Translations under genes and position numbers: made by a program | The notes under the pieces: generated by a model | Told to the model about the DNA's origin: nothing | Databases searched by the model: none | Seen by the model: only the letters and a program-made list of their open reading frames with translations | From: Bacteroidota bacterium | GTDB taxonomy: Bacteria > Bacteroidota > Bacteroidia > B-17B0 > Aurantibacillaceae | Length of the DNA stretch: 64,000 bases | Assembly (NCBI GenBank): GCA_013287545.1 | Contig: JABDDQ010000004.1 | Coordinates: 4,086-68,085, forward strand | Direction of reading: 5' to 3' | Shown here: one piece after another, positions 40,031 to 50,854 of the stretch | Position numbering within the stretch: position 1 is the stretch's first letter | How the letters are laid out: the number at the start of each line of letters is the position of its first letter

Positions 40031-40378
40031 ATGAGCAGCAACATTCGCATAGAAAAGACCTGCGAATATTGTCATAACTCCTTCCGTGCTCAAAAAGTCA
40101 CCACCCGCTATTGCTCCGAGCTCTGCAATAAAAGAGGATATAAAAAACGTATCCGTGATGAGAAGCTAAACAAAGCCATTGAAGAAGAAAACACAAAGCG
40201 ACCTTTCAATCCGGTTGTAAAGGAAAAGGAGTTTTTAAGTATTAAAGAAGTGTGTATGCTGATAGGAGCAAGCAGGTGGACGGTATATAGAATGATTGAT
40301 AACGGACTCGTAAAAGCAGCTAAAATTGGCAGGAAAACTATAATTGAACGAAATGAAATAAATAACTTATTTTTATAA
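40031..40378 (+). CDS. Zinc-finger + excisionase-family HTH protein
   Basis: N-terminal CEYCHNSF...YCSELCNKR; C-terminal LSIKEVCMLIGASRWTVYRMIDNGLVKAAKIGRKTIIERNEI. Confidence 0.82.
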   Translation: MSSNIRIEKTCEYCHNSFRAQKVTTRYCSELCNKRGYKKRIRDEKLNKAIEEENTKRPFNPVVKEKEFLSIKEVCMLIGASRWTVYRMIDNGLVKAAKIGRKTIIERNEINNLFL

Positions 40379-40385
40379 TAGCAAC

Positions 40386-41495
40386 ATGACAGTAACCTTA
40401 AGACAGCGCAAAAAAGGAGATAAGATTAGCTTATACCTCGAGTACTATAATAATGGAAGTAAAGAATACGAGTACTTAAAACTCTATTTGAAAGTAGAAT
40501 CCCCTGAGTGCAAACTCACCCGTAAAGAAAAGGATGATAACCGGATGAACCTTGATTTAGCAGAGTCCATTCGAAGCAAGCGGCATTTTGAATTAAAGAA
40601 CGGTGTATTTGGTTTTCAGGATCTAGGGAGAATGAAAGGTAGCTTCATAAAGTATTTTGAAACCCTAACAGAAAAAAGAAAAGAACAGCCCGGCAATTAT
40701 GGAAACTGGGATAGTGCCCTAAAACACTTAAAAAAATTTGCGGCAAAAGATGTGACCTTTGATGAGATAAACAAACAATGGTTGGAGAACTTCAAAACCT
40801 ATTTACAGAATGCTCAAAAATCTAGTATGGAGAATAAAAAGCTTTCTCAAAATTCCCAACATTCCTACTTTAATAAAATTCGAGCTGCTTTAAGAGAAGC
40901 TCATAAAGATGGTAATCTATTACGTAACCCCATTGATGAAGTAGATGGCATCAAAGCAGGGGAGCCCGAAAGAGAGTTTCTTACCTATGATGAACTAATT
41001 GCCATGTCAAAAACAGATTGTGATATCCCCGTTTTAAAACGAGCTTTTTTATTTAGTGCATTAACCGGTTTGCGATGGTCAGACATAAATAAACTAAGCT
41101 GGGCCGAAGTTCAGCATTCGAAAGAAATTGGCAACTATATCCGTTTTACCCAAAAGAAAACCAAAGGAGCGGAGACTTTACCAATAAACGAAGATGCGGT
41201 AAAACTATTAGGCGAAAGAACAAAACAAGAAGAGCGAGTTTTTATAGGATTAAAATACAGTGCTTGGCATAATTTCAGGTTATTACAATGGGCCATGAAA
41301 GCAGGGATAACCAAAACGATAACCTTCCATTGTGCCCGCCACACATATGCTACGCTGCAACTTACGCTTGGTACGGATATCTATACGGTTTCAAAATTAT
41401 TAGGACATAAAGATTTAAAAACTACACAGATTTATGCCAAGATAATAGATGAACGTAAAACCTTAGCGGCAACTAAAATAAAACTAGACATATAA
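40386..41495 (+). CDS. Tyrosine recombinase/integrase
   Basis: SALTGLRWSDI; HCARHTYATLQLTLGTDIYTVSKLLGHKDLKTTQIYAKI (R..HxxR..H..Y). Confidence 0.95.
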   Translation: MTVTLRQRKKGDKISLYLEYYNNGSKEYEYLKLYLKVESPECKLTRKEKDDNRMNLDLAESIRSKRHFELKNGVFGFQDLGRMKGSFIKYFETLTEKRKEQPGNYGNWDSALKHLKKFAAKDVTFDEINKQWLENFKTYLQNAQKSSMENKKLSQNSQHSYFNKIRAALREAHKDGNLLRNPIDEVDGIKAGEPEREFLTYDELIAMSKTDCDIPVLKRAFLFSALTGLRWSDINKLSWAEVQHSKEIGNYIRFTQKKTKGAETLPINEDAVKLLGERTKQEERVFIGLKYSAWHNFRLLQWAMKAGITKTITFHCARHTYATLQLTLGTDIYTVSKLLGHKDLKTTQIYAKIIDERKTLAATKIKLDI

Positions 41496-41508
41496 CACAA
41501 TTAACAAC

Positions 41509-43089
41509 ATGCTTCAATCAAACAGAAAAACTCCAGGTGTCTATATAAATGAATTAAATGCCTTTCCAAATTCAGTAGTACCGGTTGCTACTGCCGTCCC
41601 AGCATTTATAGGCTACACACCGCAAGCTTTTTATCAAGGTAAATCATATACTAACATTCCAACGAAGGTCTCTTCATTTACTGAGTTTAAAGCAATTTAT
41701 TGTATACCTGATCCAGCAGCTCCAGCTGACCCATCCAAACAATATAACCCTCAATATTATCTTGTAGCACAAAAAGCACTACCCGCTAAAGGAGATTATT
41801 TGAATATTAATGGCACCTATTATTCAATAGTACCCGACCCAAATACTATTTATTATCTCTATAACAGCATTCGTTTATTTTACCAAAATGGAGGAGGAGA
41901 TGCCTATATAGTTTCAGTGGGACCTTATGGATCCCCATCAAAAAATCCAATGAACCCGGCTGATCAAATTGTAAACCTCAATGTTCAATTATCCGATTTG
42001 CTAAATGGATTGGCTTTATTGAAAAATGAGCAGGAACCAACCATGTATATTTGTCCTGAAGCGACTTTATTATCGGTTAAAGATAATGGGACGTTGATGC
42101 AAGAGATGTTAGTACAGTGTACTGATATGCAAACAGCAATTAGTATTTTTGATCTTATTGGCGGTAAAAATCCTGATCCCATTTTATATACAAACGATAT
42201 TACAACCTTTAGAAATAACACGGGGTCACTGGGGTTGAAATATGGTGCAGCTTACTATCCGTTTATTGGCACAACCATCATGCAAAACCAAGAGATTGAT
42301 TACACAAACTTATTTGGTGGCGACCTTAAACAGCTTAAGACTATATTAAGCCCGCCAAGTAACCTCAATCCAACCGTTGATAAAATTATTGCCAATATTC
42401 AAGAACCTACAGGTGATCCCTTAACCGTTAGTCAATATAATAATGCTTTACTAAATGCCAGCCAGACGTATAACGAGATCATTCAACATGTTTTATCAGA
42501 TGCTAACATACTTCCACCCAGTGGTGCCATGGCAGGAGTAATGACTACAATAGATAATCAAGAAGGAGTTTGGTCGGCACCTGCAAACACTTCTATAGTT
42601 GGCGCAGCTTCGTTACCTATTAGATTATCAGATAGCCAACAGGAAAATTTGAACGAGGATGCTGTAACCGGTAAATCCATCAATGCAATTCGTTTTTTTA
42701 ATGGTTTAGGTATTTTGGTATGGGGTGCCAGAACACTTGATGGAAATAGTGCAGATTGGAAATATGTCCCGATTAGAAGAACGGCGATTTTTCTTGAACA
42801 ATCCTGTAAATTAGCTGCACAGGCTTATGTGTTTCAACCAAATGTAAAAAATACATGGGAAGCTGTAAAAGCTATGATAAGCAGTTTCTTAACTAGTATA
42901 TGGAAAGAAGGAGGTTTGCAGGGTGCATCTGCGTCGGATGCTTTTTCTGTAGATTGTGGTTTAGGAACAACCATGACATCTGAAGATATACTAAACGGGT
43001 TTATGAATGTTACTGTTAAAGTAGCTATTGTACATCCGGCAGAGTTCATCGTGTTAACCTTCCAACAACAAATGGCAACATCAAGTTAA
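41509..43089 (+). CDS. Contractile phage-tail/eCIS sheath protein
   Basis: N-terminal KTPGVYINE; C-terminal RRTAIFLEQSCKLAAQAYVFQPN...FVV-like tail domain VTVKVAIVHPAEFIVLTFQQQM. Confidence 0.9.
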   Translation: MLQSNRKTPGVYINELNAFPNSVVPVATAVPAFIGYTPQAFYQGKSYTNIPTKVSSFTEFKAIYCIPDPAAPADPSKQYNPQYYLVAQKALPAKGDYLNINGTYYSIVPDPNTIYYLYNSIRLFYQNGGGDAYIVSVGPYGSPSKNPMNPADQIVNLNVQLSDLLNGLALLKNEQEPTMYICPEATLLSVKDNGTLMQEMLVQCTDMQTAISIFDLIGGKNPDPILYTNDITTFRNNTGSLGLKYGAAYYPFIGTTIMQNQEIDYTNLFGGDLKQLKTILSPPSNLNPTVDKIIANIQEPTGDPLTVSQYNNALLNASQTYNEIIQHVLSDANILPPSGAMAGVMTTIDNQEGVWSAPANTSIVGAASLPIRLSDSQQENLNEDAVTGKSINAIRFFNGLGILVWGARTLDGNSADWKYVPIRRTAIFLEQSCKLAAQAYVFQPNVKNTWEAVKAMISSFLTSIWKEGGLQGASASDAFSVDCGLGTTMTSEDILNGFMNVTVKVAIVHPAEFIVLTFQQQMATSS

Positions 43090-43111
43090 TTTTTTAAATA
43101 GAATAATATAA

Positions 43112-44518
43112 ATGAATTTTACCCCTGAACAACTGAGAAAGCTTAAACCAAAGTTCGATAAGTTAACTTATACTGAAAAACTGTTGTTTTGGGATAAACA
43201 CTTTTGGAATAAGGAAAAAGACTTCTTTTTTGGCTTTCACTGGAGTTATTTTTTTAATGAAGTAGATACGGAGGAAGAACATTCGAAACCTGAAAATTCG
43301 ATAACAATTTATCCTTCTAATGGAAAGGAAAATGAGATGTGTAATATTTGGTTATTCAACCATATACAAAGTGAGCCGCACTATAATTTTGAAAAACAAA
43401 AGGAAAAATATTTTGAAAAAATTAAGAATAACCCACGGCCAATTGAATTTATAGAAAGTGAAATTGCGCTTATAATTATACAAAGGGATAAAGAAAAGAA
43501 GTTAATGGAAGGTAAATCAGATATTTTCGTATGGGGATATTATTATGGTTATCAAAGTGTAGTTCAGAATGTAAAAAGACCTCCAGTTATGGAGGCAAAT
43601 AAATTTAATAGAATAATTTTATCATATACTAAAGGTGTTTGTGATGCTTACTACTTAGGGTTTTTAGAACAACAACTTGAAGCCATAAGGCAGGGTAATA
43701 AAGCATTGTTACTTAAAAATGATAAACCCAAAGGTGAAGATATAACGATAGAGCAGGTTTATGAAATTTTCAATTCTATTGATTTAAATAAAGAGCTATT
43801 ACGTGAAAAAATGCTTAGGGGTCCTTATATATCTATGAATAAGGATACTTTTAACAGTGATGTTAGAATTTTGTTAACTCAAATATTGGAACAATATAAG
43901 GCTCAGACATCAAGACTGAATAATGAAAACAAATTAGCGCATCTTCAAGAAAGATTAAAACCGCTTCCGAAAACCACAAAAGTTGTTACCTCAAAGTTTG
44001 AAGGTGAAATGGAACAAGTTCATAGTACAATTGATGCTCTTTTAAATAAATTTTACACTGCAGAATTTAACTTAATAGCTCCTGATAATAATCCGGTTCA
44101 ATTACCGACCAACCAACCCGATATCCCTAAAGAAAGGATACTGCCTAATAAAACTGCATTTAAATACAAAAAGAAAGGAGCTAGTGACCAAACAAAAATT
44201 GCCAACTTAAGAAGCAATTTGATCGATAAGTGTTTAATAGCTGAAGCTACTCCCTTAATGGATTTTAAGAAGATATTTCGCAATGAGTTACCTACTGAAC
44301 CTATAAAATGGACTGGAACTCTATCTGAGTTATATTATTTTATCAAACAAATGCATTTGGAATTAAAACTGATAGAAGATTTAGGTAATGAGATATGGAA
44401 AATTACAGCTAATTGTTTCGTTTCTAAAGATGGTAATAAATACGATTATGCTAAGTTTAGGTTACAAAAAGCACCGGCAAATACGAGTCAATTAGACAAA
44501 ATCCTATCAAATTTATAG
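43112..44518 (+). CDS. Hypothetical protein; C-terminus weakly resembles RteC-type domain
   Basis: 468-aa ORF; C-terminal PIKWTGTLSELYYFIKQMHLE... Confidence 0.5.
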   Translation: MNFTPEQLRKLKPKFDKLTYTEKLLFWDKHFWNKEKDFFFGFHWSYFFNEVDTEEEHSKPENSITIYPSNGKENEMCNIWLFNHIQSEPHYNFEKQKEKYFEKIKNNPRPIEFIESEIALIIIQRDKEKKLMEGKSDIFVWGYYYGYQSVVQNVKRPPVMEANKFNRIILSYTKGVCDAYYLGFLEQQLEAIRQGNKALLLKNDKPKGEDITIEQVYEIFNSIDLNKELLREKMLRGPYISMNKDTFNSDVRILLTQILEQYKAQTSRLNNENKLAHLQERLKPLPKTTKVVTSKFEGEMEQVHSTIDALLNKFYTAEFNLIAPDNNPVQLPTNQPDIPKERILPNKTAFKYKKKGASDQTKIANLRSNLIDKCLIAEATPLMDFKKIFRNELPTEPIKWTGTLSELYYFIKQMHLELKLIEDLGNEIWKITANCFVSKDGNKYDYAKFRLQKAPANTSQLDKILSNL

Positions 44519-44525
44519 ACTCTGT

Positions 44526-44633
44526 ACTCTACACCCCTCATTTTTTTCTAAAAAAAAATCTAACGCAAATTAGTGTGAATTGCAACAATAAAAGGCAATT
44601 TGGGAACTCTACACTCTGCACTGCACTCTACAC
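44526..44633 (+). repeat. Three copies of ACTCTACAC upstream of HTH genes
   Basis: 44526-44534, 44606-44614, 44625-44633. Confidence 0.7.
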
Positions 44634-44734
44634 TAAAATTTAGTAGGTCATAACGGGCCTTTCTCAAATTAATTTTACATCCGAGACGTCAATATATGGC
44701 CTTGCTAGCCTAGTATTTATCTAAAAAATGTAAA

Positions 44735-45037
44735 ATGAATAACGAAGAACAAATAATCCAAAAACTAAATAGTATAGAAACTATGCTTTTAGAACAGACC
44801 CTTTTAAAAAAGGAAGTCTTAAATTTTAGTGAGGCTTGCCACTATCTTGCAGTAAGCCAAAGCCATTTGTATAAACTAACCAGTTCGAAGCAGGTACCCC
44901 ATTTTTGTCCACAAGGTAAAAAGCTCTACTTCAACCGGCAAGAGTTAGACGAATGGTTACAGCGGAATAAAAATGTAACCACCGATTTTATTGAAAAAGC
45001 AGCTACAGATTATATACTTAAAAACAAACACAAATAA
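44735..45037 (+). CDS. HTH (excisionase-type) DNA-binding protein
   Basis: LNFSEACHYLAVSQSHLYKLTSSKQVPHFCPQGKKLYFNRQELDEWL. Confidence 0.85.
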   Translation: MNNEEQIIQKLNSIETMLLEQTLLKKEVLNFSEACHYLAVSQSHLYKLTSSKQVPHFCPQGKKLYFNRQELDEWLQRNKNVTTDFIEKAATDYILKNKHK

Positions 45038-45039
45038 AT

Positions 45040-45315
45040 ATGAAAACATTAACTGATACGGAGTTTCAAGAGCTAAACAAAAGACTTGCAAATATTGAAG
45101 CCTTGCTTTTAGAAAAGCAAAAACACCCAACAGAAATCATTTATGATAACAGCGACTTTATTCGATTAATGAATATTAGTAAACGAACTGCCCAGGATTG
45201 GCGTGATGAAGGATTAATTACTTTTTCCCAGATTGGGAATAAGATTTACTACAGGCAAGAGTATGTGAAAGAATTTATGGATAAGCACTTAAAACCGAGT
45301 AGTAAAAAAAAATAG
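45040..45315 (+). CDS. HTH (MerR/excisionase-type) DNA-binding protein, ends in A9 run
   Basis: DFIRLMNISKRTAQDWRDEGLITFSQIGNKIYYRQEYVKEFM; last codons AGT AAA AAA AAA TAG. Confidence 0.8.
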   Translation: MKTLTDTEFQELNKRLANIEALLLEKQKHPTEIIYDNSDFIRLMNISKRTAQDWRDEGLITFSQIGNKIYYRQEYVKEFMDKHLKPSSKKK

Positions 45316-46061
45316 TTGACTATACGGTTGTTCCAATAAACCTCTGTGTTTATGTAGCCCAAAATAACATAGAGAAAACGTTTAGGTTATATCTATGGCT
45401 GAAATTAAACTATGTAAGTGGTAAATTCCGGTCGACAACAAGTGAGTTAAACAATATAGCTTCACACTTGGGGTACAAAGATATACGTGCTGTTAACTAT
45501 CAAGTAAAGGCTCTTAAACGCTTAAACTGGTTAAAATATAACGAGGTTACCGGATATTATTTAATTTGCTCTTTTAATAAACTAAATATTGAATTTGAAA
45601 AGCAATCTCGTGCCGGGATTATTTGCTATAAAGAAGATGTATTAAACATATATGCTTTTGTTGGGGCTGCGATATTCTCTTACTTATGTAAGAGTTATTG
45701 GAGGAAGAAAAAACGAGAGAAGGTCGTGCTAATAAAGGGAGGCACCTGTAACTCCTTCTCTCAATCCTCCAACTTTAAATTAAAATACGCTCCGGTTGCA
45801 ACAACAGGGATAAAGGCTTTGTTTGGTATATCATCATCAAAAGCATCCTTTCTAAAGCTTCAAGCCTTTAAAATGGGCTATATAGAGGTTAAAAAGAACT
45901 TTATAGTTGAGAACATTTCTATTACAGAGTTCAACCAGGCAAGAAAATATGCCGAAGGTGGAAACAAACTCCTAATTAAGAATGGAAAAGTATGTAGGCA
46001 ATCAATTGATACCATTTTGCCTCGAATTACACTTCGTAAACGACAAAAACCAGTAACATAA
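45306..46061 (+). CDS. Hypothetical protein without a conventional start; frame open back to the A9 run
   Basis: Open frame reads ...IVDYTVVPINLCVYVAQNNIEKTFRLYLWLKLNYVSGKFRSTTSELNNIASHLGYKDIRAVNYQ...; no in-frame ATG until late in the protein. Confidence 0.6.
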   Translation, partial: KKIVDYTVVPINLCVYVAQNNIEKTFRLYLWLKLNYVSGKFRSTTSELNNIASHLGYKDIRAVNYQVKALKRLNWLKYNEVTGYYLICSFNKLNIEFEKQSRAGIICYKEDVLNIYAFVGAAIFSYLCKSYWRKKKREKVVLIKGGTCNSFSQSSNFKLKYAPVATTGIKALFGISSSKASFLKLQAFKMGYIEVKKNFIVENISITEFNQARKYAEGGNKLLIKNGKVCRQSIDTILPRITLRKRQKPVT

Positions 46062-46235
46062 AGAAGGGATTATTAAGGGAAGTTATCTAAGTATAGTGAT
46101 ATAACTTAAATAAGGTAAAGAAGGTGGGCGGTTTTTTACCATTAAATAATAATTAGATGCGCAAAATTTTTTAGGATAATGTTGATGTATTAATAAAACT
46201 CAAATAATTGTGTTTTCTTTGTGTTACTTTTAAGT

Positions 46236-47105
46236 ATGCTTGACCAATTTAATACTACAATTTTCCATAGAATATCAAAAACTTGGGGCAGTGGCCCACT
46301 GTTCTGTACTTTATCAAATCGCCATCAGTATTATTGTAAAAAAAACAATAAAATAATCATCCCCTTTACTGATCTTATTAACGAAGTTTTGGTAAATAGA
46401 TTACTTAGTGGTTGGGGGATTAAAACTCCAGAAATTTGTTTGGTTAATTTTGAATTTAATGTTTTTCAAAATGAATTAGAAGCAGCTTTTAATGAAATTG
46501 CTGAAGAAGCTAAAGCCAGAAACGCTATTTTGAAAAATCATTATGTAGCAAATAGATTTGTTCATCCGTTGTTTGGAAGTAAATATATTATAAACCATTC
46601 TGGATTATCTGGTAATGCTGCTAAAGATAGTTTTGATTTAGATAAATTTTCTAATCCCACTCATATTCTGTTAATTGGTTTTTTTGATTTATGGATTAGT
46701 AATAAAGATAGAAAACCATCAAATTCAAATTTGATTAAAAGCTTGAATGAAGATGAAAAGTTTGATATCGTTGCTATTGATAATTGCCAAGCATTTTATA
46801 ATAATAACAGTTATGTTAATTTATTGGATTCAGTACCATTTCTTACTCCGGAAGAATCCATTTTAACATGTGGGTTGGCACAACAATTGATTGATACTCT
46901 AAGCAAGGAACAGATTAGTGATTTGTCGAATTTAGCATTATCATTCATTGAAAATTCTTTACCTTTGCTGGACGAAACCTTTGATGAGATTCCAAATAGT
47001 TGGGGACTATCCGAAAATAATAGAGTTGAGATAAGAAATTTTTTATCTAATAAAAAGAGAATAGAAGATATTCGTCAAAAATTTATATCTTTCGTTGAAT
47101 TATGA
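46236..47105 (+). CDS. HipA-like kinase-domain protein
   Basis: NHSGLSGNAA...ILLIGFFDLWISNKDRKPSNSNL..FDIVAIDNCQAF kinase-like motifs; partner gene DUF3037-like. Confidence 0.65.
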   Translation: MLDQFNTTIFHRISKTWGSGPLFCTLSNRHQYYCKKNNKIIIPFTDLINEVLVNRLLSGWGIKTPEICLVNFEFNVFQNELEAAFNEIAEEAKARNAILKNHYVANRFVHPLFGSKYIINHSGLSGNAAKDSFDLDKFSNPTHILLIGFFDLWISNKDRKPSNSNLIKSLNEDEKFDIVAIDNCQAFYNNNSYVNLLDSVPFLTPEESILTCGLAQQLIDTLSKEQISDLSNLALSFIENSLPLLDETFDEIPNSWGLSENNRVEIRNFLSNKKRIEDIRQKFISFVEL

Positions 47106-47968
47106 AAAATTACTTTAGTATAGTTTCATTTTTGAATAACCAAATTAGCGGAGAAAAAATTGCTATTGGTTTGATATTTCTAAAAGATGAAACCCCTTTT
47201 GTTAGATTTTCAAAAGCAAAAATAAATCTTGCGAAAAAGATTAATCCACTTTCATTTTCCCTTCTTACTAGTAATATTAAAAATTTTGAACCTAAATTTT
47301 TAAACAATATTAATAAGTTGAAAAATGAATCTAATTTTAGCCTTGATAATTTATATAGGCTGAATGGATACGAACAAGGGATTATTAATATATCAACACC
47401 TAAATTATTTAATGCCGAGATTAATACTGAAACTGTAGAATATTATTTTAATGAATGGATAGAAAATAAATCTCATTTAGAGAAAGAAGAAATTATCAAA
47501 CCTAAAAAGGAGTCGACTATAAAACAAACTGTAAAAACAAATTTAGCTATTTACAAAGAGAGAATTGATATTAATTATCGAGTGGAAAAAGAAAATATTC
47601 CTGATTTATTTTTTGATTATAGATTAGATGTTATTGCTGCTAATGGATCATTAATTACTGCAAAATCCGTTGATTTAGAGAATCAAAAAAGTGGATCAAT
47701 TGAAAACTCTATAGCTAAATATGAACTTCTTTTAGATTGTTTAATTCCTTTTTCTGAAAAAAAACTCCACCTTAAATCTTCTGGTCATGAAAATCTATTG
47801 TTGATTAACAAGCCCTTAAAAGGTTCTGAAAATGAAGAGTTATATCATAAACTTAAAAACCAAAGGCAATTTAAATTTAAAGTTGCTGAACTGGATCAAT
47901 TGTCAAAATTAAAATCCGTTATTGCAAAGCACGGTGTAAGTAAGTTTTCAGAGCGTTTATTAGCTTAA
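47102..47968 (+). CDS. DUF3037-like protein
   Basis: Overlaps previous stop (ATGA); N-terminal YFSIVSFLNNQISGEKIAIGLIFL resembles DUF3037. Confidence 0.55.
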   Translation: MKNYFSIVSFLNNQISGEKIAIGLIFLKDETPFVRFSKAKINLAKKINPLSFSLLTSNIKNFEPKFLNNINKLKNESNFSLDNLYRLNGYEQGIINISTPKLFNAEINTETVEYYFNEWIENKSHLEKEEIIKPKKESTIKQTVKTNLAIYKERIDINYRVEKENIPDLFFDYRLDVIAANGSLITAKSVDLENQKSGSIENSIAKYELLLDCLIPFSEKKLHLKSSGHENLLLINKPLKGSENEELYHKLKNQRQFKFKVAELDQLSKLKSVIAKHGVSKFSERLLA

Positions 47969-47993
47969 GTAGAAAATTCTCTATCTAAACTAC

Positions 47994-48029
47994 CGCAAAC
48001 CAACCCCAATTAACGCAAACGAACCCCAA
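47994..48029. repeat. Two 16-bp direct repeats CGCAAAC(C/G)AACCCCAA, 20-bp period
   Basis: 47994-48009 and 48014-48029. Confidence 0.9.
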
Positions 48030-48081
48030 CCCTTTCATTCATTAATTCTCGGTCGTAACTTAGTAAAGTTATTGCCAATAC

Positions 48082-48627
48082 ATGAGTACAAAAAGTGCGG
48101 AGCCCACCTATAAAACAACCCTGATAAAATTATCGGAGATAAAACCCAACCCCGATAATCCCAGAATAATAAGAGATGAAAAATTCAACCAACTGGTAAA
48201 GTCGATCAAAGACTTTCCAAAGATGCTTTATTTAAGACCGGTGGTAGTCAATGATGAACTCATGGTCCTTGGGGGCAATATGCGATTAAGAGCAGCCGAG
48301 AAAGCAGGCTTAAAAGAAATCCCGGTCATCAAAGCATCCGAACTAAGTGCCGAAGAACAAAAAGAATTTATTATAAAAGACAATGTAGGTTTTGGCGAAT
48401 GGAACTGGGATACATTAGCCAACGAATGGAACACAGAACAACTTATCGATTGGGGCATGGAGATTCCAAACTTCAAATCAGAAGTAGAAGGAAACTTTAA
48501 CGATCAAGGTATCACAAGCAAAAACCAATTCGGGGTAATTGTTATCTGTGAAGATGAAACAATCCAAGAACAAACCTTTAAAGATTTAGCCGAACTGGGA
48601 TACACCTGTAAAGTAGTTGTAACATGA
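48082..48627 (+). CDS. ParB-like nuclease-domain protein (phage type)
   Basis: IKLSEIKPNPDNPRIIRDEKFNQLVKSIKDFP...VLGGNMRLRAAEKAGLKEIPVI. Confidence 0.9.
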   Translation: MSTKSAEPTYKTTLIKLSEIKPNPDNPRIIRDEKFNQLVKSIKDFPKMLYLRPVVVNDELMVLGGNMRLRAAEKAGLKEIPVIKASELSAEEQKEFIIKDNVGFGEWNWDTLANEWNTEQLIDWGMEIPNFKSEVEGNFNDQGITSKNQFGVIVICEDETIQEQTFKDLAELGYTCKVVVT

Positions 48628-49319
48628 TCATACAAGTAAGAAACAAAACCAAAGACTATAACAACTACCGTTCCGCGCGAGTAAAGAGTTTGTTCAATGC
48701 CGAGAAAGGAAACGAATTTAATTTAGATGCCAACCTCCCAATAGAAAATATGGATTGGCAAATAGGATTAATAGTTGGACCCAGCGGAAGCGGTAAAACC
48801 TCCATTGGTAAAAAGCTATTCGGAACGGATAAGATAATAGACTTATATAAAGACTGGGACATAGACTTACCCATCGTAGAAGCCATATCTCCACAAGGTG
48901 ATTTTAATGCCGTAACCGCTGCCTTAGCCAATGTAGGATTAGGAGATGTTCCGGCATGGTTAAAACCCTTCCATGCACTTAGTAACGGACAACAATTCAG
49001 GGCCGGGTTAGCCCGGGTAATTACCAATGCACCCGATGAAGTAATCATTGATGAGTTTACCAGTGTTATAGATAGACAAATTGCTAAAATAGGAGCTATG
49101 GCCTTTGCCAAGGGCTGGAGAAAAAACAAACAAAAAAAATGTGTACTCCTTGCTTGCCATTACGATATTATTGAATGGTTACAACCCGATTGGGTTTTCG
49201 ATACAGGAACCGGAGAGTTTAAAAAAAAAGTTCCATCGGAAACAGACCCAGCTTCAATCTGGAAATTAGGAAGGTCGACTCCTCTTACTGGAAACATTTT
49301 AAACCGCATTACTATTTAG
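48624..49319 (+). CDS. ABC-type ATPase (N-terminal half of a COG2401-like ATPase-acetyltransferase)
   Basis: Walker A VGPSGSGKTS, signature LSNGQQFRAGLARV, Walker B EVIIDEFTS; frame leaves homology after A9 at 49221-49229. Confidence 0.85.
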   Translation: MIIQVRNKTKDYNNYRSARVKSLFNAEKGNEFNLDANLPIENMDWQIGLIVGPSGSGKTSIGKKLFGTDKIIDLYKDWDIDLPIVEAISPQGDFNAVTAALANVGLGDVPAWLKPFHALSNGQQFRAGLARVITNAPDEVIIDEFTSVIDRQIAKIGAMAFAKGWRKNKQKKCVLLACHYDIIEWLQPDWVFDTGTGEFKKKVPSETDPASIWKLGRSTPLTGNILNRITI

Positions 49320-49327
49320 ATCTACCC

Positions 49328-49780
49328 ATGCCACCCGCCGCAGAATATTTTATCGGAACTGTAGAAGGCGAACTTGTTTGTCATGTAGCTGTTTGCCCTT
49401 TCTTTACAGCAAAAGCATATAGAGCCACCCGATTAGTAGTGATGCCTGAGTGGCAAGGGGCAGGGGTAGGGACTAAGTTTTTAAAATGGATATGCGAGTA
49501 TCACAAACAAGGCAACGGAAGATGTAATAAGAAACTACCTACGCTATTTCATACCTCGCATCCTCAACTAATCGCTTATCTGAAAAACAGCCCCGATTGG
49601 GTTTTAAAAAGCCAGCAGATGTATGGAGGCAATAAAGTAAAATCTCAAAGAAGCATCGCCAAAGCAAATATCCTAAAAGATGAAAGCATCGGAAAAAATG
49701 CAACAGGTTACGGAGGACATTTTAGAGCAGTGCAAGGATTTAAATATATAGGCCATAACGAAACTATTAAAATGATCTAA
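49328..49780 (+). CDS. GNAT-type acetyltransferase domain (C-terminal half of the same protein)
   Basis: In the same frame upstream of this start, RPSFNLEIRKVDSSYWKHFKPHYYLDLPMPPAAEYFIG; RLVVMPEWQGAGVGTKFLKWI acetyl-CoA motif. Confidence 0.78.
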   Translation: MPPAAEYFIGTVEGELVCHVAVCPFFTAKAYRATRLVVMPEWQGAGVGTKFLKWICEYHKQGNGRCNKKLPTLFHTSHPQLIAYLKNSPDWVLKSQQMYGGNKVKSQRSIAKANILKDESIGKNATGYGGHFRAVQGFKYIGHNETIKMI

Positions 49781-49815
49781 TAATATAATGCAAGAAAAAT
49801 AATTAAGTAGGTAAG

Positions 49816-50460
49816 ATGATTAACGTATTTATATCCGGACAAGGCTACTTTGCAGAACAAGTACTTCGAGCTTATTTAAACAATGGTATAAACGTAATAG
49901 GAGTGTGCTGTCCGATAGGGGATAAGTACATTGGAAAATTAGCCAACACATTTGATATACCCATCATACATAACTTAAATGTAAATTCACTAAACACTCT
50001 AAATAAAACAATAGACTTAGGTGTATGCGCACATTCATTTGATTATATAGGAAAGCTAACAAGGTATAAATCAAAACACGGCTGGATAGGATATCACCCA
50101 TCCCTTTTACCCAGACACAGAGGTCGCTCATCTATCGAATGGGCTTTACGCATGAAAGATATTATTACCGGTGGAACGGTGTTTTGGTTAAATGCCGGAA
50201 TCGACAGAGGAGATATAGCCTATCAGGATTGGTTTTTTATAGAGCCTAAATTATTTAACCTAAATCCTAAAGAAGCAGCCAGGATATTGTGGCAAGACAA
50301 ACTACAAGAAATAGGAGTAAGGCTGCTTTTAAAAGCGGTTAAAGATATTGAAGCAGGTGTTTATATCCGAATCCCACAAGACAACAGATTCAGCACATGG
50401 GAGCCATCAACAGAAGTGAAAGATATTTATAGGCCCGATGCCTTGATGATAGGAAACTAA
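49816..50460 (+). CDS. Formyltransferase-family protein
   Basis: GWIGYHPSLLPRHRGRSSIEWAL...ITGGTVFWLNAGIDRGDIAYQ. Confidence 0.88.
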   Translation: MINVFISGQGYFAEQVLRAYLNNGINVIGVCCPIGDKYIGKLANTFDIPIIHNLNVNSLNTLNKTIDLGVCAHSFDYIGKLTRYKSKHGWIGYHPSLLPRHRGRSSIEWALRMKDIITGGTVFWLNAGIDRGDIAYQDWFFIEPKLFNLNPKEAARILWQDKLQEIGVRLLLKAVKDIEAGVYIRIPQDNRFSTWEPSTEVKDIYRPDALMIGN

Positions 50461-50497
50461 TTAGTCAGTTCTGTTTAAAATACAGTGAAAATACAAC

Positions 50498-50854
50498 GTG
50501 GCAAATCCTCAAAACATAGAGAAGCATAAGTTTAAAAAAGGGCAGTCCGGCAACCCAAACGGCAGGCCACTGGGTGTACCAAATTCTAAAACGCGTTTAC
50601 TAAGATTACTCGGTTTAATTCAGCAAAAAAAGAACCCTGTAACCGGTGAGAAGGAGGATTTTAGTGTGGCAGAGCAAATGGATATGGCTATTATAGCAAA
50701 AGCCCTACAAGGAGATGTAAGAGCCTATAAGGAAATAATGGATAGGTTAGAGGGGTATGTTACTGCTACTCAAGAAAAAAACAGCCTTGAACCGGTAACT
50801 ATACAAATTATGAGAATGGGAAAAGATTTAGCAGATGAAACTTATGTGGATTAA
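50498..50854 (+). CDS. DUF5681-type protein, terminase-adjacent family
   Basis: GTG start; [24 protein letters not shown]. Confidence 0.8.

Follow-up and report, generated by a model that had tools for sequence, protein, structure and literature searches.

Programmed frameshifts of opposite direction predicted at the domain joint of a phage ABC ATPase-GNAT gene family

In a phage gene family encoding an ABC ATPase followed by a GNAT acetyltransferase, the two domains are very probably joined by a programmed frameshift, with both products kept throughout the family and the shift running in opposite directions in different lineages. Judging from comparative sequence analysis, an ABC protein with a short tail and an ABC-GNAT fusion both appear to be made, through opposite frameshift mechanisms; the conserved sites, the tail frame, the tail stop and the stimulators described below all point this way. 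At the locus analysed here, most ribosomes would pass a run of nine A in the 0 frame and terminate about 29 codons further on, yielding ABC plus tail (231 aa), while some would slip back by one base at A_AAA_AAA and continue into the GNAT domain, yielding ABC-GNAT (about 385 aa). In most phyla the arrangement would be reversed: the continuous reading frame encodes ABC-GNAT, and shifting by +1 at an RF2-like SD-spacer-CUU site would produce ABC with an equivalent tail. That the shifts occur, and with what efficiency, is what we infer from these signals.

The split gene and its surroundings

The window, a 64,000-nucleotide stretch of DNA from a Bacteroidota bacterium, contains the gene on the forward strand within a small cassette. 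A ParB N-terminal-domain protein (48082..48627; PF02195, E 1.7e-8) comes first, and its stop overlaps the start codon of the ABC gene by 4 nt (ATGA). The 0-frame product of the latter (48624..49319, supported by the ORF, Pfam and PHROG_11143) consists of the ABC core and a short alternative tail, and carries Walker A (GPSGSGKTS), ABC signature (LSNGQ) and Walker B (VIIDEFTS) motifs. Its frame reads ...FDTGTGEFKKK across the A9 run (49221..49229), in codons TTT AAA AAA AAA GTT, which places the slippery heptamer A_AAA_AAA (49223-49229) in register. The 0-frame tail that follows (49230..49319) comprises 29 codons and a conserved TAG stop (49317-49319) and overlaps sequence that encodes the N-terminal part of the GNAT domain in the -1 frame. 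That frame is open from 49223, where it reads KKSSIGNRPSFNLEIRKVDSSYWKHFKPHYYLDLPMPP..., up to 49780, and gives the GNAT acetyltransferase domain (49223..49780; PF13508, PF00583; PHROG_11143 positions 196-353) with its stop at 49778-49780; GNAT is also listed as an ORF of its own at 49328-49780. The original prediction had placed the ABC frame through A9 and joined GNAT to it in -1 without an intervening stop, and these coordinates were confirmed. The next cassette gene encodes a formyltransferase-domain protein (49816..50460, +; PF00551, E 1.1e-15; PHROG_9240), and the last a DUF5681 protein (50498..50854, +; PF18932, E 2.3e-16), beyond which host-type genes begin.

Pfam matches over the cut-offs comprised ABC_tran in the first part and Acetyltransf domains in the second. 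By its profile and by the order of its domains, ABC ATPase and then GNAT, the gene belongs to the ABC-GNAT family PHROG_11143 (357 positions), with the ABC half matching positions 3-194 (E 8e-86) and the GNAT half 196-353 (E 3e-50). Because the two halves in the window match adjacent halves of this profile, the break falls where the two domains of one known family meet. In unsplit homologues, with which the original prediction had proposed an alignment, ABC and GNAT lie in one ORF with the same joint. AlphaFold2 modelling of a fused relative (pLDDT 78) places this joint in the linker that connects the ABC core with GNAT.

The cassette stands at the end of an apparent integrated element or prophage remnant (40031-50854). 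This putative element includes an HTH_17 protein and, next to mnmE/trmE, a tyrosine integrase (40386-41495), then a single protein resembling a contractile-tail sheath (41509-43089), a further two HTH_17 proteins and a HipA-like kinase (46221-47105), followed by the ParB/ABC-GNAT/formyltransferase/DUF5681 cassette. No clear attachment repeats were found for it.

Conserved -1 sites in split homologues

Relatives were collected by a protein search of viral contigs and 85,462 species genomes, and each locus was frame-tested. GNAT lay in -1 relative to ABC at 81 distinct loci, and the two domains shared one frame at 110. The heptamer A AAA AAA or A AAA AAG was present at the junction in the 0-frame register in all 81 split loci, as opposed to 2 of the 110 fused loci, so that an X_XXY_YYZ heptamer in the register expected of a -1 frameshift gene is conserved in the homologues. 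The run varies from A6 to A11 across the split loci, with A9-A11 in 57 of 73 unique ones. Many of these loci come from metagenomes (metagenomic viruses), and the named genomes include Flavobacterium, Tenacibaculum, Paenimyroides, Chryseobacterium, Capnocytophaga and others; the finished Chryseobacterium chromosome NZ_CP075682 carries two split copies. Pairwise identity among split loci falls as low as 53% with the domains intact. The proposal that recoding is programmed and produces short and fused forms is thus strongly supported by the in-register A AAA AAR at 81 of 81 split loci. A quick tree of 181 sequences, weakly supported and giving no direction, places 4 changes between the split and fused states.

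A few loci deviate. One in Riemerella columbipharyngis (L183) has one A fewer than its relatives and GNAT in the other frame, through decay or sequencing error, and two loci within or near the split group (L031 with A11, L125 with A10) are in frame, as real reversions or homopolymer errors.

The Firmicutes branch is represented here by a few phage records. Phages of Lactococcus, Streptococcus and Oenococcus, together with Enterococcus phage 9184, share the -1 arrangement and stop at the equivalent position within the HYYL motif. The junction reads A_AAA_AAG in phage 9184 and A_AAG_GGC in the Oenococcus phages; six Lactococcus/Streptococcus phage loci (L275, L276, L287-L290) show the split in -1 and share the stop with no standard heptamer, a point against the frameshift reading, and conserve CAG GTT TTT C. 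In phage 9184 (L292, 1845-2675), where the ABC frame carries A_AAA_AAG and GNAT lies in -1, the GNAT half is annotated as 'DNA polymerase'.

A programmed alternative that bypasses the ribosome is transcriptional slippage, in which the polymerase would add an A at A9 and the mixed mRNA would give both proteins. Runs of nine A are within the known range for such slippage, and A6G is too short for it in its ordinary form. The predominance of A9-A11 runs and the weak 3' structure of these members fit the slippage reading, as do the two in-frame relatives L031 and L125, which differ by run length alone. The split is nevertheless kept by three loci with A6G only (L149, L212 and L220, reading CGA AAA AAG, ACA AAA AAG and GCA AAA AAG) and by A7 members with a stem close behind the heptamer. 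A long homopolymer is therefore not a feature of all members, which does not decide the matter for the A9 of the window. In addition, the heptamer is always in the ribosomal register, and slippage does not explain the sister +1 sites described below because no homopolymer run is found there.

Most A6 and A7 loci have a stem-loop starting a few nucleotides 3' of the heptamer. In the A7 group (ten relatives, the majority close to the locus in the window), the helix is 93% paired with compensatory changes at 3 of 10 pairs, and the signal was lost when the partner strand was slid. Shorter runs were accompanied by stronger 3' structure (Spearman 0.73, p 2e-8), a trend confounded with G+C content (rho -0.55) and with phylogeny; the A9-A11 members, including the locus in the window (-5.9 kcal/mol), have only a weak 3' stem. 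Since RNAalifold found no single consensus 3' structure common to all split loci across subgroups, and only subgroup stems exist, we restrict the structure claim to the A6/A7 members. A GACC...GGTC pairing seen by eye was dropped as it was not consistently kept, and no conserved upstream SD was seen by eye in the -1 clade.

The A6G-only members and the 3' stem-loop in short-run members make ribosomal -1 frameshifting a better reading of the split family than transcriptional slippage. Slippage is an unlikely explanation overall; at the A9 locus in the window it is a live minority option, and it is possible at A9-A11 loci generally because the 3' stem is weak there. The original prediction had left the two mechanisms side by side, and it is the ribosomal one that now leads for the family, with slippage still possible at A9.

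Candidate +1 sites and a shared tail in fused relatives

The fused homologues, which come from other phyla, carry a different signal at the same junction: an SD-like element (AGGGGG, GGAGG or GGGAGG), 3 nt, and then CTT (CUU), followed by CGG (45), TGG (31), CAA (9) or other codons including AGG. The junction leucine is encoded by CTT in 63 of 66 representatives, compared with 391 of 2107 (19%) of the other leucine codons in the same genes (Fisher p 1e-40). In genes above 58% G+C, CTT occupies the site in 26 of 30 cases, compared with 11.5% of their other leucine codons. Several of the exceptions to CTT are other +1-prone contexts (CCC C, GTT C and CTT AGG C). The mean anti-SD pairing energy of the 10 nt before CTT is -9.6 kcal/mol for 62 SD-type representatives, over a background mostly of 0 to -4, and the pairing peaks exactly upstream of CTT. 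An adjacent SD-like element about 3 nt 5' of CUU, as in prfB, was found at 65 loci; no in-frame stop directly follows CUU. From its sequence, the site may work like that of prfB without being driven by a stop. The fused loci of Bacteroidia lack the adjacent SD and have instead a small hairpin just 5' of CTT, which covaries, with G-C, C-G, A-U and U-A all found at one position.

The +1 frame from the joint is open for 25 to 36 codons and stops at the TAG column of the split loci in 110 of 111 fused loci, and in the lone exception (L284) the stop lies a few codons later. The tail entered by the predicted +1 shift is the same tail of about 26 residues that the split loci encode in the 0 frame. 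With synonymous codons resampled within each gene as the null, a stop at the shared column was found in 44 of 44 split representatives (5.4 expected) and in 77 of 78 fused representatives (23.8 expected). At the junction 100% have a tail frame that stays open over 25 codons, compared with a median of 20-39% elsewhere. For distant pairs, the alternate-frame peptide similarity reaches z 16-18 at the junction (16.4 for the 0-frame tail of the split gene), whereas elsewhere the means are 2.4-2.6 and the maximum 6.0. Because the stop column and the alternate-frame similarity exceed the resampled null, these comparisons indicate that two reading frames are under selection at the junction in both groups. 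Part of this constraint could act at the level of RNA or DNA and not on the peptide of the tail. The original prediction had dismissed this 0-frame tail as unconvincing; it is in fact conserved in length, in stop position and, beyond expectation, in sequence.

The SD-CTT motif of the fused homologues might instead be a DNA element, such as a packaging or recognition site, with no +1 shift, and the gene does lie near terminase in many phages. We regard this as improbable given that CTT stands in codon register at the domain joint, that some of its substitutes are themselves +1-prone and that the +1 frame ends at a conserved stop.

Very improbable is an arrangement of two genes, in which ABC would end at TAG 49319 and GNAT would restart by coupled re-initiation at ATG 49328. 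The ATG does lie 8 nt past the TAG, and the Streptococcus, Lactococcus and Oenococcus phages are annotated with two genes. However, the conserved GNAT stretch RP..LEI..W..F..HYYL precedes ATG 49328 and overlaps the ABC tail, which disfavours an internal GNAT start; the fused homologues encode this stretch in one ORF, and in the model it makes up the first strand and helices of the GNAT domain. Re-initiation would also leave the invariant heptamer, the 3' stem and the CUU/SD sites unexplained. Genuinely separate genes with a conserved ABC C-terminus were the outcome that the original prediction had set against itself: the tail did prove conserved, because both products seem to be selected, but no start for GNAT precedes its conserved N-terminal stretch.

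Scarcely credible is the loss of one A from an ordinary fused gene by sequencing or assembly error or in a decaying pseudogene: homopolymers are error-prone and single odd cases exist (the Riemerella locus with GNAT in the other frame, and the in-frame loci L031 and L125), but 81 distinct loci, including the two copies in the finished Chryseobacterium chromosome, share the split over identities down to 53% and rule out sequencing error, the intact domains and conserved tail rule out a pseudogene, and the run length varies from A6 to A11 while the frame and the tail stop do not, so that the one-base homopolymer deletion once offered as an option is rejected.

Host distribution, possible function and known systems

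The three types of signal follow host group. Adjacent-SD sites occur in zero named Bacteroidota genomes, hairpin sites in 18 named Bacteroidia and one Clostridia MAG, and A AAA AAR -1 sites, among named species genomes, only in Bacteroidota, mainly Flavobacteriia. In Bacteroidota the anti-SD is sequestered by the ribosome (PMC9976891), and poor efficiency is reported for the RF2 +1 shift of Flavobacterium johnsoniae (PMC12421855), so an SD-driven +1 site would presumably be weak in Bacteroidota; a -1 heptamer, needing no SD, would fit the host pattern. We consider it likely that an obligatory output of ABC-tail and ABC-GNAT is maintained across many phyla by interchangeable recoding, with the host ribosome dictating the signal: an SD-assisted +1 shift on CUU in most bacteria, a hairpin-assisted +1 shift in Bacteroidia, and, in Flavobacteriia and their relatives, where the anti-SD is sequestered, a -1 shift at A_AAA_AAR. 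It is unusual for a programmed frameshift to persist with a different direction and signal in different lineages, and this offers a natural experiment on how ribosome differences affect recoding.

A ParB-like gene also lies 5' of ABC-GNAT in Gordonia, Rhodococcus/Jace, Leptospira, Pasteurella and Streptococcus MismyG phages, a formyltransferase gene lies 3' in Gordonia, Pseudomonas and Porphyromonas phages, and ABC-GNAT is near terminase in several phages. Gene 3 of Gordonia phage BiggityBass (L272, 1823-2473), annotated as a tRNA-methyltransferase, matches Formyl_trans_N like the next gene in the window. Earlier work cited in PMC7824862 predicts acylation of a DNA base by the ABC-GNAT pair. 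Following that prediction for the domain pair, the products may form a multi-subunit machine that acylates phage DNA and needs a fixed ratio of ABC-only to ABC-GNAT subunits, as with gamma and tau of dnaX. If so, a GNAT-less ABC subunit would be part of the predicted DNA-modifying machine. Annotations that now read two genes, or one long gene, would have missed the second product. Beyond the window, a PHROG_11143 profile search of the relatives' genomes gave only generic ABC and GNAT matches, PADLOC only weak generic ones, and the top matches of a PDB fold search were generic ABC transporters only; the top full-length match in a viral-library fold search was a homologue in Leptospira phage LE4.

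No prior report of recoding in the ABC-GNAT family was found in the open-access literature searched, and COG2401, the label given in the original prediction, is not named there. Clusters of ABC transporters, which may include this family, appear in the GeneTack survey with -1 transitions that it classed as translational coupling.

The phage ABC ATPase-GNAT proteins of PHROG_11143, a family with no function assigned, have the same two domains in the same order and the neighbourhood ParB - ABC-GNAT - formyltransferase - terminase. The passage of PMC7824862 on this domain pair describes the coupling of ABC and GNAT and the predicted DNA modification with no mention of recoding, whereas the joint here appears to be recoded. 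Phage tail-assembly chaperones gpG/gpGT likewise use a conserved frameshift to make short and extended proteins, but theirs is a structural assembly gene, whereas here an enzyme is concerned and the mechanism is swapped between lineages. The -1 shift of dnaX (A_AAA_AAG; gamma/tau) shares with the split loci the heptamer class, the short and long forms of an ATPase subunit and, for the short-run members, the 3' stem; it differs in the gene concerned, in its upstream SD stimulator, of which no conserved counterpart was seen in the -1 clade, and in that the run varies here from A6 to A11. The prfB (RF2) motif, AGGGGG-NNN-CTT-TGA-C, has an SD-like element three nucleotides upstream of CTT (PMC12421855), and the fused relatives have the same spacing, as in L271, which reads AGGGGGTATCTTCGGC. 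In prfB, however, an in-frame stop drives the shift, whereas in the fused relatives CTT is followed by CGG, TGG, CAA or AGG, the predicted shift leads from the long frame to the short one, and Bacteroidia use a hairpin just 5' of CTT.
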